Positions 24,513 to 41,938 of a stretch of DNA of 48,042 nt are shown here, one piece after another. Made by a program: the position numbers and the translations under genes. Within the stretch, counting starts at the first letter, position 1. Every line of letters begins with the position of its first letter. The DNA lies in contig NZ_JASJCS010000032.1 of NCBI RefSeq assembly GCF_030065885.1, positions 1 through 48,042 on the forward strand, in the 5' to 3' direction. This DNA comes from Ilumatobacter sp. Lineage in GTDB: Bacteria; Actinomycetota; Acidimicrobiia; Acidimicrobiales; Ilumatobacteraceae. The notes below the pieces were generated by a model that saw only the letters and a program-made list of their open reading frames with translations, searched no databases and was not told the DNA's origin.

Positions 24513-25378
24513 TCGCCATCACGCTGCTCGGTACCGGCAGCCCGATCCCCAGCCCCGACCGCGCCGGGCCGTCGACCCTGATCACCGCCGGCAGCGGCAC
24601 CGACGCCGAGCACTACCTCGTCGACGCGGGCCGTGGCGTGCTGATGCGCATGGCGGCCGTCGGTGTCGGTGCACCGAATCTGGCGGCGGTGCTGATCACC
24701 CACCTCCACAGCGATCACATCACCGACCTCAACGACGTCATCACCACACGCTGGGTCATGACGTTCGAACCGACACCGCTCACGGTCGTCGGGCCGGTCG
24801 GCACGCAGGCCGTCGTCGACCATCTCCTCGCATCACTCGGCCCCGACATCGCGTACCGGATGGCCCACCACGACGACCTCGACCACCCGCCGCCGGTGAC
24901 GGTGGTCGAGGTGGCCGACGGGCCGGTCGAGCTGCCCGGTCATGCCGACGGAGCGGTCCGGATCCGCTGCGCGCCGACCGACCACAGGCCGGTCGAGCCG
25001 AGCGTCGGCTACCGCTTCGACCACGCCGGTGCGTCGGTCGTGGCGGCCGGCGACACCGTGCCGTGCGATGGTCTCGACGAGCTGTGCGACGGCGCCGACG
25101 CGCTGGTCCACACCGTCATCCGCAAGGACATCATCGAGAACCTGCCGCTCCAGCGCATGCAGGACACGCTCGACTACCACTCGTCGCCGGCCGAGGCGGC
25201 GCAGACTGCGGCGCGCGGCGGCGTCGCCACGCTCGTCCTGACCCACTACGTGCCACCGATCTCGCCCGGGGACGCCGGCGACGACTGGCGGGGGCTGGCC
25301 GCCGAGCACTTCGACGGCACGGTCGAGATCGGCGACGACCTCCACCGCGTCGAGGTCGCCGGCTCGGGTGCGCTGTGA
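24509..25378 (+). CDS. Metallo-beta-lactamase-fold hydrolase (RNase Z/arylsulfatase-like)
   Basis: 289 residues from a GTG that overlaps the sulfatase stop. The metal motif H65-L-H67-S-D69-H70 is intact, with later ligands in [10 protein letters not shown] (Asp) and VLTHYVP (His). The start [12 protein letters not shown] is typical of the RNase Z/ElaC-like branch, which includes hydrolases of lactones, esters and aryl sulfates. Given the operon, a small-molecule hydrolase is more likely than tRNA processing. It overlaps the next gene by 4 nt. Confidence 0.88.
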
Positions 25379-25845
25379 CCACCGTCGAACGAGCCGCTCA
25401 CCTCGACGCCCCGCCGGCCGAGGTCTGGGGCGTGCTGGCCGACTTCGCCGCGATCAGCTCGTGGGCGCCGAACGTCGACCACTCCTGCCTCCTCACCCAC
25501 CAGGCCGACGGCGTCGGCGCCGTGAGGCGGATCCAGAGCGGCCGGATCACGCTCGTCGAGACGGTGACGGTCTGGGAGCACGAACGGGCGATCGGCTACA
25601 CGATCGACGGTCTGCCGCCGAGGATCCGGTCGGTCATCAACACGTGGCGACTCTCGCCGAGCGGCTCGGGCACCGCGGTCCGACTCACGTCCGAGGTCGA
25701 CGCCGGCCCGCGGCCGCCCCAGCAGCTGCTCGCGCGGGCGGTGGGCCGCCGGCTGGCACGCGCCTCGGATCAGATGCTCACGGGCCTCGCCGTGCGTGTC
25801 GCCGGTGTCGCCGGCAGATCGGCGGCGACAGGGAGCGCGCCATGA
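25375..25845 (+). CDS. SRPBCC (START-like) ligand-binding protein
   Basis: 156 residues from the GTG at 25375, which overlaps the MBL stop (GTGA). It starts [33 protein letters not shown] and later has [18 protein letters not shown], the classic pattern of a polyketide-cyclase/START-like hydrophobic-ligand pocket. No catalytic residues are certain. Position between two hydrolases suggests it binds or converts the pathway intermediate. Its stop overlaps the next ATG. Confidence 0.82.
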
Positions 25846-28412
25846 CACCCGAACGACCCGACGTCGTGATCCTCATGACCGACGAAGAGCGCGCCGCGCC
25901 CCCATACGAGACCGACGAGCTCGCGGCCTGGCGCCGCGAGGCGCTGCCCGGTGCAGCGTGGTTCGACGAGCACGCCGTCAACTTCCAGCGCCACTACACC
26001 GGATCGCTGGCCTGCGTGCCGAGCCGTCCGACCCTCTTCACCGGTCACTACCCCGACCTGCACGGCGTCACCCAGACCGACGGGCTCGGGAAGACCGCCG
26101 ACGACTCCCGCCTCCGCTGGCTGCCGGAGGGCGAGGTGCCGACGCTCGGCAACTGGTTCCGCGCCGCCGGCTACGACACGCACTATGACGGCAAGTGGCA
26201 CATCTCCCACGCCGACCTGCACGACGAGACCGACCGGCGCATCCGCACCAACGACAGTGAGGGCAACGTCGACGCAGCCGCCGTCCAGCGCTACCTCGAC
26301 GCCGACCCGCTCGCGCCGTACGGGTTCTCGGGTTGGGTCGGTCCCGAGCCGCACGGCGGCGCCGTCGCCGACTGCGGACTCCGCCGCGACCCGCTGATCG
26401 CCGCCCGCGTCGTCGACTGGCTGGAGGACCGCTACGCACGCCGGCGTGCCGGCGAGGAGGCGGCCCTCCGGCCGTTCCTGCTGGTCACGAGCTTCGTCAA
26501 CCCGCACGACATCGTGCTGTTCCCGGCGTGGGTCCGCCGGGGCAGCCCGCTCGAGCCCTCACTGCTCGACCCGCCGCCCGTGCCCCCGGCTGCGACGGCC
26601 CACGAGGATCTCGCCAGCAAGCCCGCAGCACAGATCGCCTACCGCGAGACCTACCCCTCTGGCTACGGCGTGGCGCCGGCGGTCGCCCGGGCGTACCGCA
26701 AGAACGCCCAGCGGTATCGCGATCTCTACTACCGGCTCCACGCCGAGGTCGACGGCCCGCTCGACCGGGTCCGCCGGGCGGTCACCGAGCACGGTTCCGA
26801 GTCGGCGGTCGTCGTCAGGACGTCCGACCACGGCGACCTGCTCGGCGCGCACGGCGGCCTCCACCAGAAGTGGTTCACGCTCTACGACGAGGCGACCCGA
26901 GTCCCGTTCTCCATCGCCCGTGTCGGCCGGGCTGCGACGGCGGGCCGCCGCATCGACGGCGCACCCACCTCACACGTCGACGTCGTGCCGACGTTGCTCG
27001 CCGCGGCCGGCATCGACGAGGCCGCGACGGCCGACGTGCTCCGCCGGGACTTCAGTGAGGTGCATCCGCTCCCGGGGACGGACCTGATGCCCGTCGTCGA
27101 CGGCGCCACCGACGCCGACCGCGACCGCGCCGTCTACCTGATGACGCGCGACAACGTCCTCGAGGGCGACTCGGGAGCATCTGCGATGGCCCGCCGCCTC
27201 GGTCGGACCGACAACCCGCCCCCGCCGATGCGGATCCGTGTCCCCGCACACGTCGGCTCGAACTTCGAGGGTCTCGTCCACCGGGTGCCACCCGAAGCCG
27301 GAGGCGCCGGCCACCTGTGGAAGCTGGTGCGCACGTTCGACGACCCGGCCGCATGGACCGAACCGGGGGTGCGCCACCTCGCCGCCAACGGGCCCGGAGG
27401 CGACCGGTACCGGACCGCCGCGCTGCCCGACCAGTGGGAGCTGTACGACCTCGACGACGACCCGATCGAGGCGGTCAACCGTTGGCACGACGAGTCGGCC
27501 CGCGACGTGTTCGACCACCTGCGCGCCGTACTGAAGGAGGAGCGGGCGCGAGCGGTCCCGGAACGCAACACGCCGTGGCCGTACGTCCCGCGCCGACCGA
27601 CCGGGGTCCCACCGTCGAAGCGCCCGCCACCGCCTGCCCGCCTGCTCCGCAAGGTGCTGCAGCGAATTGGGCTGCACCCCGACGACGCCGAAGCGGTCGA
27701 GTTCGATCTCGCCGGCCGGCGCGCCCTCGTCGTCGCCACGAACACGGCGGTGATGGACGTCGGCAAGCCGACCGGCGTGTTCGCCAGCGAGATGACGGTG
27801 CCGTACTACGCATTCCTCGACGCCGGCATGGACGTCGATGTGGCGAGCCCGCTCGGCGGCGTGATCCCCGTCGACCCGATGTCGCTCAAACCCGCGATCC
27901 GCACCGAGCAGGACGACCGGTTCCTCGCCGACGACCGGCTCCGCAACAAGGTGACCGACTCGCTGGCGATCGGCGATCTCGACATGGTCGACTACGACCT
28001 CGTGTTCCTCGCCGGTGGATGGGGCGCGGCGTTCGACTTCGGATTCTCCGAAGCGTTGGCCGAGCAGATGACCGAGGCGAACGCCGTCGGCGCGATCATC
28101 GGCGGCGTCTGCCACGGTCCACTCGGCCTCCGCAACGCGAGGGGAGCGGACGGCGCTGCGCTCGTACGTGGCCGCAGGGTCACGGCGGTGACCGACAAGC
28201 AGGTCCGCGAGCTCGGGATCGATGCGACGCCGCACCATCCCGAGACCGAGCTCCGCGCGATGGGTGCCGAGTTCGAGAGCGAGACCAGGTTCCGCGACCC
28301 GCTCGCCAACCACTGGGTCGTCGACGGCAACCTCGTGACCGGCCAGAACCAGAACGCCGGGCCGATGGTGGCCCGCGAGATGATGCGACGCCTGCAGGAA
28401 GGAACGCCATGA
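25842..28412 (+). CDS. Sulfatase fused to a DJ-1/PfpI-like domain
   Basis: 856 residues. Residues 1 to about 590 are a sulfatase-like domain with D14-E15 near the N-terminus, formylglycine site C58-V-P-S-R62 followed by PTLFTG, GKWHIS, and SDHGDLLGAHG. Residues about 620-856 are a DJ-1/PfpI (class I glutamine-amidotransferase-like) domain with the nucleophile elbow around C757 (GGVCHGPLGL) and late His residues. The joining linker is Pro/Arg-rich (about 580-610). No frameshift or stop separates the halves, so this is a genuine fusion in the DNA. It overlaps both neighbours by 4 nt. Confidence 0.88.
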   Translation: MTPERPDVVILMTDEERAAPPYETDELAAWRREALPGAAWFDEHAVNFQRHYTGSLACVPSRPTLFTGHYPDLHGVTQTDGLGKTADDSRLRWLPEGEVPTLGNWFRAAGYDTHYDGKWHISHADLHDETDRRIRTNDSEGNVDAAAVQRYLDADPLAPYGFSGWVGPEPHGGAVADCGLRRDPLIAARVVDWLEDRYARRRAGEEAALRPFLLVTSFVNPHDIVLFPAWVRRGSPLEPSLLDPPPVPPAATAHEDLASKPAAQIAYRETYPSGYGVAPAVARAYRKNAQRYRDLYYRLHAEVDGPLDRVRRAVTEHGSESAVVVRTSDHGDLLGAHGGLHQKWFTLYDEATRVPFSIARVGRAATAGRRIDGAPTSHVDVVPTLLAAAGIDEAATADVLRRDFSEVHPLPGTDLMPVVDGATDADRDRAVYLMTRDNVLEGDSGASAMARRLGRTDNPPPPMRIRVPAHVGSNFEGLVHRVPPEAGGAGHLWKLVRTFDDPAAWTEPGVRHLAANGPGGDRYRTAALPDQWELYDLDDDPIEAVNRWHDESARDVFDHLRAVLKEERARAVPERNTPWPYVPRRPTGVPPSKRPPPPARLLRKVLQRIGLHPDDAEAVEFDLAGRRALVVATNTAVMDVGKPTGVFASEMTVPYYAFLDAGMDVDVASPLGGVIPVDPMSLKPAIRTEQDDRFLADDRLRNKVTDSLAIGDLDMVDYDLVFLAGGWGAAFDFGFSEALAEQMTEANAVGAIIGGVCHGPLGLRNARGADGAALVRGRRVTAVTDKQVRELGIDATPHHPETELRAMGAEFESETRFRDPLANHWVVDGNLVTGQNQNAGPMVAREMMRRLQEGTP

Positions 28413-40003: not shown

Positions 40004-41260
40004 TCACGCTGCGGTTCGTCGGCGCGTTCGCTGGTCGGCGATGTCGGGTCGACATCGGGTGAAGAGCGTGCCATCGGGTTGGGTGATGGTCAGCGTCCGA
40101 TCGTCGGACAGCTCGAGTCGCCAGCCGCCTTCGTGAACGACGTGGTGATGTTGGCTGCAGAGTGGCAGGAGGTTGGCCAGATCGGTGGGGCCGCCGAGCT
40201 CCCACGGGAGGATGTGGTGGATCTCGCACCGCTCGAACGCCACGTCGCAGCCGCCGAAGGCGCAGCAGCGGTAGATCGCCCGCAGCGCCCGGCGCTGGCG
40301 ACGGTTGGCGTGGCGGATCGTGCGTCCCATGTCGAACGGCTTGCCGTGCTGATCGACGACGACCGGCGTGACGCGGCCGTTGCAGAGCAGCCGAGCCACC
40401 GAAGCAGGGGGCAACGCCGCGCCGTCGCTCGTCTCGCACACGCCGTGCTCGCGCAGCTCACCGGTCGTGGCGGTCTGGTCGTCGACGACCAACGTGATGT
40501 CGGCCTCGAGGGGGCGCTGCTGCTGATGCCCGCCGGCCACGAGCCGGCCGAGCGCCTCGGCCGCCAGCCGGTTGCGGTCGACCGTTCGATCGACGAACTC
40601 AGCTTCGCCCCGGCGGGAGCCCTCGGCGATCATCGACGCGACCTCGTGGTCGACGGCACCGAAGACCTGGTTGGCGAGCTCGGGATGGAATGCGAATCGG
40701 CCCTCGATCATGCCGGAGGCGGCGTTCAGCTTGCGGGAGAGGAAGGTGTCGCGCCGCTGGCGCCGGTTGCGCTAGATGCCCTGATCGCGTTCGAGCTGAC
40801 GGGCGAGGTCGCGGCACGACCGGCCGAACTGCTCGGGCGTCATGCGGGTCGCGTCGGCGAGCAGGTCGTCCTCGCGGTCGAGCAGACTCGTCTTCACCTC
40901 GTCGTCGAGCTTCGCCGTCACGTTGGCGAGTGCGTCGACGTGCTCGGCCCCGACAGCGCCGGCGGAGAGTGCCTCGCCGAACGACGGCGCGGTCTCGATG
41001 GTCTTCGAGCGCCGCTCCTTGCGCTTCCCCTCGGCCGCCGAGACGCCACCGCACTTCGAGTGCAGGTCGGCCGCCGGCGCTCCGCCCGCCTCGTGCAGCT
41101 CGCCGAGCCGAGTGCTCACCTGCGCCTCGAACGCGTCGAGCCACCCCCGCAGCTGCTTGATGCCGCCGAGCAGTTCGGAACACGCACGAGAGTCGGCACC
41201 CGTGACGACCACGCCGATGAGCGACCGAAGTGTCGCAGCGGGGTCGGGAGCGGGAGACAT
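40004..41260 (-). pseudogene. DUF222-HNH nuclease gene interrupted by one in-frame TAG
   Basis: A single frame of 419 codons encodes DUF222 (residues 1 to about 280) and an HNH nuclease domain (CEIHHILPWELGGPTDLANLLPLC ..., about 350-385). It is broken only by TAG at 40774-40772, codon 163, between RQLERDQGI and RNRRQRRDTF; both sides are in the same frame and typical of the family. No frameshift is present. Likely a recent nonsense mutation, with possible restart or read-through. A SOS box lies 14 bp upstream of the ATG, as reported for mycobacterial 13E12-type HNH genes. Confidence 0.85.
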
Positions 41261-41289: not shown

Positions 41290-41452
41290 TCAACGTGAAT
41301 TGATCTGAAGACTCGCCAAGATCTGTCCCTGCCGACCGCTGGAGCGATCTGTCCCGATCAGTCGCCGATCGCGTCGAGCTCAGGGCCCGCGGCGTCGGAC
41401 GACATCGATGCCGATCGGAATCATTGCGCTCGCTGAGGGGGTTGGTTCGGTC

Positions 41453-41938
41453 GTGCGCACTCGCCTCGTCATCGCCCTCGGCATCGTGCTGGCTGCGTGT
41501 GGTGGCGCGCCGACGTCGACCGCACCGGAGATCCCGGCCGAGCCGGTCTTCGTCGGCGAGTTCGAGACGCTGGCCGGCGAGACGTTCGAGCTCGGTTCGT
41601 TCGAAGGCCGCGACGTCGTGTTCTGGTTCTGGGCGCCGTGGTGACCGTTTTGACGTCGTGAAGCCCCCACGGTCGTGGAGGTCCAGCAGCACTACGGAGG
41701 CGAGGTCGAGATCATCGGCATTCCCGGCCTCAGCTCCGACATCGGTTCGATGCGCGACTTCGCCGAGGCGACGGGGACCGAGGGCATCACCCACCTCGTC
41801 GACGTCGACGGCGAGCTGTGGGCGCGCTTCGGCGTCACGTCGCAGCGGACCTACGTGTTCGTCAACGACGACGGGTCGCAGCGGCGCAGCGGCTACGGCA
41901 GCCTGCCGCAGGACGTGGAGGAGCTGCTCGCGATGTAG
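41453..41938 (+). CDS. TlpA/DsbE-like thioredoxin-fold lipoprotein with two selenocysteines (UxxU)
   Basis: 161 codons if TGA at 41642-41644 and 41651-41653 are read as Sec (U64 and U67). The start is the GTG at 41453, giving MRTRLVIALGIVLAACGG with lipobox LAAC; an ATG at 41408 is possible. The fold reads in one frame: GETFELGSFEGRDVVFWFWAPW-U-PF-U-RREAPTVVEVQQHY, then IIGIPGL, ITHLVDVDGELWARFGV and YVFVNDDG. Family members have WAPWCxxCRxEAP at this place, as in the WCPFC of M. tuberculosis MPT53, so the two TGA codons replace exactly the two redox cysteines. No other stop occurs. The downstream hairpin fits a SECIS. The cis-Pro site appears to be Arg (SQRTYVF). Probably a membrane-anchored extracytoplasmic thiol/diselenide oxidoreductase. 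The alternative, a pseudogene with two exact Cys-to-stop changes, is much less likely. Confidence 0.88.
41663..41682 (+). promoter_or_regulatory. Candidate bacterial SECIS hairpin
   Basis: 41663-41670 (gcccccac) pairs with 41675-41682 (gtggaggt): four pairs C-G, A-U, C-G, C-G under the loop, one C/A mismatch or bulge, then C-G, C-G and a G-U. The apical loop is GGTC (41671-41674). The loop starts 18 nt after the second UGA; in E. coli fdhF a GGUC also sits in the apical loop about 19 nt after UGA, where SelB contacts it. A competing pairing gaccgt/acggtc (41643-41648 with 41669-41674) would cover the first UGA. Confidence 0.7.

Follow-up and report, generated by a model that had tools for sequence, protein, structure and literature searches.

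Selenoprotein L, a peroxiredoxin (Prx)-like protein of aquatic animals and some bacteria, contains a UxxU motif (U being selenocysteine, Sec) that is able to form a diselenide. To our knowledge, natural diselenide active sites are few. In the available text of two reviews, Prx-like thiol:disulfide oxidoreductase selenoproteins of Pfam family PF00578 are listed with UxxC or UxxU motifs and one or two Sec residues (PMC13188914, PMC9312934), with WP_010940744.1 given as an example. Excerpts of other papers describe UxxU in the marine Prx-like 2 family (PMC2398784), list a ULPU-containing selenoprotein (PMC5029168), and count Actinobacteria among the phyla rich in selenoprotein families (PMC1794560). 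Since UxxU in the AhpC-TSA family is already found in reviews, the motif class is not new. The cis-proline next to the active site is treated in the accessible part of PMC2757866: it is likely part of the site for the substrate polypeptide, it may keep metals off the CxxC motif (citing Su 2007), and peroxiredoxins have Arg at this position.

The gene described here lies in a window of 48,042 nucleotides (the whole stretch of DNA that was analyzed) and has the following features.

41435 to 41441, plus strand: possible ribosome-binding site GAGGGGG, read from the sequence, 11 nt 5' of the GTG start
41453 to 41938, plus strand: predicted UxxU lipoprotein gene of 161 residues, from a GTG start to a TAG stop, with two in-frame TGA codons
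41453 to 41500, plus strand: predicted lipoprotein signal peptide ending at the lipobox Cys16 (LAAC; Cys16 codon at 41498 to 41500)
41642 to 41644, plus strand: first UGA (UGA1), residue 64, predicted Sec at the N-terminal position of CxxC
41651 to 41653, plus strand: second UGA (UGA2), residue 67, predicted Sec at the C-terminal position of CxxC
41675 to 41938, plus strand: mechanical open reading frame (ORF) of 87 aa with a GTG start, the counterpart of the 86-aa database fragments of relatives
41846 to 41848, plus strand: CGG codon of Arg132, which takes the place of the cis-proline in the thioredoxin fold and is aligned to the Pro of Mt-DsbF

Translation of the frame from 41453 to 41938 revealed only two internal stops (table 11), the TGA codons 64 and 67, in the context WFWAPW-U-P-F-U-RREAP. 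An alternative in-frame start, ATG, lies at 41408; the GTG at 41453 gives a shorter, more usual lipoprotein signal. Among the 31 rows of UxxU homologues described below, the window included, a lipobox-like pattern together with a usable start was present in 23, and several of the other 8 end at contig edges. Read with Cys at both sites, the product matched the Pfam families AhpC-TSA (PF00578, 4.4e-12), Redoxin (PF08534, 1.8e-11), and also Thioredoxin, and an NCBIfam scan gave 16 families at an E value of at most 0.1, none of them over its own cutoff. The best solved relatives by sequence were Mt-DsbF (3ios, 1.8e-24) and MPT53/Mt-DsbE (1lu4, 1.8e-21), and the CxxC motifs of both align with the two TGAs. 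An AlphaFold2 model of the product (pLDDT 90.2) had Mt-DsbF as its best PDB match (TM 0.88, normalized by target). Mt-DsbF and Mt-DsbE were the top structures, and DsbF, DsbE, and ResA lead the best 50 fold matches listed, among which no entry is a peroxiredoxin by title. These results agree with the earlier note on this DNA, which had placed the only two stops at the redox Cys positions of a TlpA/DsbE-type domain behind a lipoprotein signal. In our reading, the gene very probably encodes a thioredoxin-fold, TlpA/DsbF-type predicted lipoprotein in which both UGAs are read as Sec.

We searched one genome per species, from 84,980 species, with the DNA pattern F-W-A-x-W-TGA-x-x-TGA, which by design finds double-TGA genes only. 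The scan gave 73 matches in 72 stretches. True in-frame homologues accounted for 30 matches, all from Acidimicrobiales records and all reading WFWAPW-U-P-[FHTV]-U; the remaining 43, judged by their unrelated frames, were chance matches. On viral contigs, all three matches to the pattern were likewise in unrelated frames. Since two genes straddle contig ends (L061 and L116 are one gene, as are L080 and L090, with identical overlaps of 141 and 112 nt), the 30 matches represent 28 genes in 25 assemblies. One Acidimicrobiales assembly carries tandem UxxU genes (L107), with the two matches 787 bases apart. Within 396 sampled genomes of the phylum, the window was the sole match to the pattern.

A search by protein does not choose the codon. 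In 397 Acidimicrobiales genomes, searched with a query that had Cys at both sites, the 19 best of the 35 matches listed all had exactly two TGAs; in total, 20 of the 35 had two, 11 had one, and 4 had none. A search of 395 genomes from the class gave two TGAs in the three best matches and in no other match listed, many of those below the top three being single-TGA or stop-free relatives. Every stop inside the matches listed in the class and order searches was a TGA, and none was scattered elsewhere in the genes, a point that the earlier note had asked about together with the codons of homologues at the two sites. Two stops in one frame, in a host genome that is a draft of 200 contigs, might instead mean that the gene is a pseudogene, that the sequence is in error, or that UGA has become a sense codon throughout the genome. 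We regard this as extremely improbable. The same two TGAs recur in 28 other genes, which makes sequencing error very unlikely; the stops are of one kind only, and the Sec machinery is present (see below). Moreover, where the 3' end could be read (29 UxxU rows), TGA is itself the terminator in 11.

In a tree of 73 rows built with the two motif residues masked, the 27 UxxU rows formed one clade (100/100). Outside it, the UxxC and CxxC rows were intermixed; the tree is based on few columns and leaves 26 forks open. Four rows truncated at contig ends (L061, L080, L090, and L116) were left out of the tree and of two further alignments (A3 and A4). The set of 19 UxxC loci used below is without L037 (UxxC), and L028 (CxxC) stood outside the same locus reading. 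Downstream of UGA2, six close pairs differed at 71, 47, and 197 sites in codon positions 1, 2, and 3, respectively, which, judged from the sequences, is the pattern of a translated frame. Coding constraint was seen on either side of the two TGAs.

The earlier note had expected standard annotation to split such a gene into two unrelated small ORFs, and for the C-terminal half the database proteins fit this. From two database searches, one of them a profile search of 5.8 billion proteins of which the best 120 of 1892 matches were taken, we examined 138 proteins. Seventeen of these, 86 or 93 residues long, are C-terminal fragments that start shortly past UGA2. The fragment P0050 is identical in every residue to the end of locus L105, in whose DNA both TGAs are present. 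The other 121 are full length.

Downstream of the two UGAs we found a candidate selenocysteine insertion element.

41664 to 41681, plus strand: predicted bacterial SECIS hairpin, from covariation, fold, and group comparison
41664 to 41670 and 41675 to 41681, plus strand: the two arms of the hairpin, with one C.A mismatch, around the loop GGUC at 41671 to 41674

The hairpin (CCCCCAC-GGUC-GUGGAGG; a stem of 4 bp, the mismatch, and 2 bp) has its GGUC loop at a distance of 26 nt from UGA1 and of 17 nt from UGA2. In the 29 UxxU genes, 89.7% of the hairpin cells were paired, compared with 37 to 67% in slid controls. Two-sided changes were seen in 23 cells, a number that none of 500 shuffles reached (mean, 8.3), and they fell in four of the seven pairs. 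Two of the five covariation measures were not clearly above the shuffles, in the UxxU and UxxC sets alike; for UxxU, the number of pairs with a two-sided change was reached in 78 of 500 shuffles and the number of further pair types in 462 of 500. The shuffles leave the relatedness of the sequences in place. RNAalifold, unaided, recovered six of the seven pairs. The same helix was found at the same place in the 19 UxxC genes, with 78.2% of cells paired (slid controls, 37 to 50%) and 21 two-sided cells (shuffle mean, 8.5). The mean number of pairs out of seven was 6.3 in UxxU, 5.5 in UxxC, and 3.0 in the six CxxC rows, and the GGUC loop was present in 31 of 31, 17 of 19, and 2 of 6 rows, respectively.

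According to the available part of PMC13188914, a bacterial SECIS (bSECIS) has a loop of 3 to 9 nt with G in the first two places and a stem of 4 to 16 bp, and lies 16 to 37 nt from the UGA; its energy is at most -7.5 kcal/mol. The hairpin has a loop, stem, and spacing within these ranges for both UGAs. Its energy in the window was -6.6 kcal/mol for the 18-nt hairpin alone and -10.6 kcal/mol for the 36 nt after UGA2. Stretches of 36 nt reached -7.5 kcal/mol in 29 of 31 UxxU and 17 of 19 UxxC rows, but so did those of 4 of the 6 CxxC rows, and folding energy did not single out the hairpin (z of -1.17 and +0.34). Energy was therefore dropped as evidence because it does not discriminate between the groups, and the case for a SECIS is built on the covariation.

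Since the hairpin covaries and occupies the same place in the single-UGA (UxxC) relatives, a single SECIS probably serves both UGA codons. SelB and tRNA-Sec would then decode both from one hairpin, at 26 and 17 nt, and the most economical reading would be that a SECIS first used for UGA1 has come to serve another UGA nine bases downstream as well. The position of the hairpin, where UxxC genes need it for UGA1, could be taken to mean that only UGA1 is read efficiently as Sec, with UGA2 mostly terminating translation or giving another residue and the product thus being short or mixed; the spacing of 17 nt to UGA2 comes close to the minimum of the model of 16 to 37 nt in the part of PMC13188914 available. 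We consider such a product very unlikely. The 17 nt still falls inside the bSECIS model, the second TGA is kept in the 19 best of the 35 matches listed in the protein search, and both the coding constraint and the predicted fold continue past UGA2.

Decoding of both UGAs as Sec would call for the Sec machinery, which the earlier note had proposed to look for and which we found complete in the host genome (5.04 Mb in 200 contigs; 90.7% complete, 5.1% contamination). selB (277 bits, over the cutoff) adjoins selA (402 bits) on contig C12, and a tRNA-Sec with the anticodon UCA scored 66.6 bits. selD (377 bits; L047, contig C37) has one in-frame TGA, read HGAG-U-ACK, so that SelD is, from its sequence, itself a predicted selenoprotein. 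Two single-TGA paralogues of the UxxU gene, WAPW-U-STC (L126, contig C93) and WAPH-U-PFC (L127, contig C118), bring the predicted selenoprotein genes of this genome to at least four. In the WAPH-U-PFC paralogue, the GGUC loop is missing from its usual place. Of the genomes with matches listed in the class search, 72 had TGA-containing matches and 46 had stop-free matches only; selB (E<1e-70) was present in 70 of the former and in 31 of the latter, a comparison that covers these 72 and 46 of 179 genomes. Within Acidimicrobiales, again among the matches listed, it was present in 48 of 48 TGA-form genomes and in 2 of 7 stop-free-only genomes. The two TGA genomes that lack it are 79% (G188) and 82% (G379) complete. 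TGA forms accompany selB, and the presence of selB is insufficient to predict them.

The UxxU proteins differ from their relatives at residue 132. This residue was Arg in 24 of 27 UxxU proteins and Pro in none, the other three having Gln, Ser, and Gly; in the same alignment, 24 of 26 relatives have Pro. Reading of the loci gave Pro in 24 of 29 UxxC (Ser in 3, Gln in 2) and in 9 of 10 CxxC (His in L028), and Arg in neither group. All 17 database fragments have Arg at this position. The 121 full-length database proteins have Ser (65), Pro (47), His (5), Thr (2), or Asp (2), and never Arg. Many of those with Ser are actinobacterial CxxC TlpA-like proteins, such as P0003 of Actinoplanes. No Cys or single-Sec member with Arg132 was seen among the order-wide loci and the 138 database proteins. 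A further reading of the motifs of 26 loci included 13 UxxU loci, with Arg in 11, Ser in 1, and Gly in 1; their species overlap those of the pattern scan and were not added to the counts, and L129, L134, and L142 stood outside this reading, though listed with two TGAs. Three single-Sec relatives (L032, L143, and L150) have GRS(T/V)F in the cis-proline loop, with Ser at 132 and Arg one residue before. Some relatives that have no second Sec lack Pro as well (5 of 29 UxxC, 1 of 10 CxxC, and 74 of 121 full-length database proteins, mostly with Ser), so that the loss of the cis-proline alone is not tied to the double Sec. Furthermore, as all UxxU genes form one clade, double Sec and Arg132 represent a single evolutionary co-occurrence.

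The earlier note had proposed a double-Sec extracytoplasmic oxidoreductase. Its double-Sec part is supported by the results above; the Arg at the cis-proline place points to peroxiredoxin-like chemistry and not to plain disulfide exchange. Because the cis-proline is lost and Arg stands in its place, we favor a Prx-like, diselenide-forming peroxide or thiol reductase. The product would be exported and lipid anchored, and Sec64 and Sec67 would cycle between diselenol and diselenide. Given an Arg at the cis-proline place, as in peroxiredoxins, Arg132 is a probable stabilizer of the selenolate, and Sec67 would be at the place of the peroxidatic Cys of peroxiredoxins. The enzyme would most likely reduce peroxides or other oxidized substrates outside the membrane; the other Sec would resolve the selenenic acid into the diselenide, which a thiol partner would then reduce. 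A peroxidase-like function is thus a tentative assignment, made from residue positions. Still somewhat more speculative is the evolutionary proposal that a thioredoxin scaffold was converted into a Prx-like, envelope-anchored diselenide peroxidase by a change of the cis-proline to the Arg with which peroxiredoxins activate their catalytic residue and, in the same clade, of the second, normally buried Cys to Sec, with one SECIS for two UGAs that lie nine bases apart; as part of this proposal, and with the same reserve, the double-Sec form would be known only in one bacterial order and annotated as half-length fragments.

Alternatively, the protein might use its diselenide as an oxidant to introduce disulfides into exported proteins, as would its nearest likenesses, the actinobacterial DsbE and DsbF. 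Its predicted lipoprotein location and its closest solved structures (Mt-DsbF, 1.8e-24; Mt-DsbE, 1.8e-21), both of which fold hirudin oxidatively according to the excerpt of PMC3853704, would suit such a role, which we nevertheless find rather unlikely. The cis-proline, absent in all 27 UxxU proteins, is likely part of the substrate-polypeptide site as far as the accessible part of PMC2757866 describes it. In addition, a diselenide is normally a weak oxidant.

Loss of the cis-proline could also leave the UxxU site open to a metal (e.g., ionic mercury or copper, or an Fe-S cluster), which would make this a metal-handling protein. This would fit the suggestion that the cis-proline may keep metals off CxxC (available part of PMC2757866, citing Su 2007) and the listing of another bacterial UxxU family as a metal-binding protein (available part of PMC13188914). 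However, the residue at the cis-proline place is Arg, which is no ligand, in 24 of 27 proteins, and when ten ORFs near the window gene were compared with Pfam, seven matched and none belonged to a metal-resistance family, so that we judge metal handling improbable. The same ten ORFs (DUF222/HNH pieces, a VOC protein, DUF1801, an alpha/beta hydrolase, and others) suggested no partner.

Gene neighborhoods were compared in 30 contexts, those of the window and of 29 loci, using ORFs of 90 aa or more; many of the contexts were cut near the gene. No conserved neighbor hinted at a partner or substrate. When frames that overlap the UxxU gene are set aside, the gene clusters found in at least four contexts all came from one four-locus subclade (L085, L094, L100, and L113), in which a conserved series of genes lies behind the UxxU gene. 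Among the products of this series are presumably a CDP-alcohol phosphatidyltransferase-like protein and an acyltransferase-like one. Two other observations concern the window. The adjacent ORFs 40004 to 40711 and 40772 to 41260, both on the minus strand, correspond to two parts of the DUF222 model, the first to its C-terminal part (with HNH) and the second to its N-terminal part, and the DUF222 gene looks split, perhaps by a frameshift. At 26013 to 26057, minus strand, an Rfam match (62 bits) to the Mycobacterium small RNA Ms_AS-5 lies antisense within a long ORF (25368 to 28412, plus strand) and perhaps is merely a conserved coding stretch.

The UxxU clade bears on the question of why an enzyme pays for two Sec residues. 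It comprises 29 genes, has close relatives with a single Sec or with Cys, and shows one clear accompanying change, to Arg, and one hairpin for two UGAs, so that swaps of single residues could test the chemistry as well as the decoding. It also represents selenoproteins that stand in public annotation as C-terminal stumps.

We take the organism of WP_010940744.1, the example of the listed PF00578 selenoproteins, to be Geobacter sulfurreducens. The UxxU lipoprotein predicted here is like that set in its Pfam family and its UxxU motif, one or two Sec residues being present in the listed proteins. It is set apart from them by description, since the available text of PMC13188914 and PMC9312934 mentions neither a lipoprotein nor an Arg at the cis-proline place for them, and the string Actinobacteri- does not occur in the main text of either. 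The best match in both sequence and fold is to DsbF and DsbE (3ios, 1lu4), which share the exported thioredoxin domain but have CxxC and a Pro at the cis-proline place, whereas the UxxU gene has two UGAs and an Arg. The likeness to TlpA/DsbE-DsbF proteins in fold and sequence is therefore accompanied by UxxU in place of CxxC and by a missing cis-proline, and since Pro was found in 0 of 27 proteins, we consider the UxxU group a divergent sister clade and not a canonical member of that family. Peroxiredoxins share with it the AhpC-TSA domain and the Arg at the cis-proline position. They have a TxxC or SxxC motif, however, and because the predicted Sec64 stands in place of this Thr or Ser, we do not class the UxxU protein as a peroxiredoxin. 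In the literature searched, which was without subscription journals and preprints, neither a UxxU protein in Acidimicrobiales nor its Arg was found. The single-Sec UxxC lipoproteins of Acidimicrobiales and the class have the same domain and hairpin position as the UxxU gene, and in the 19 UxxC loci the single UGA is the same codon as UGA1; they differ in having one Sec and in a residue 132 that is never Arg (0 of 29). What appears to be new here is the Acidimicrobiales clade of predicted UxxU lipoproteins with its arginine, the UxxU motif itself being known.
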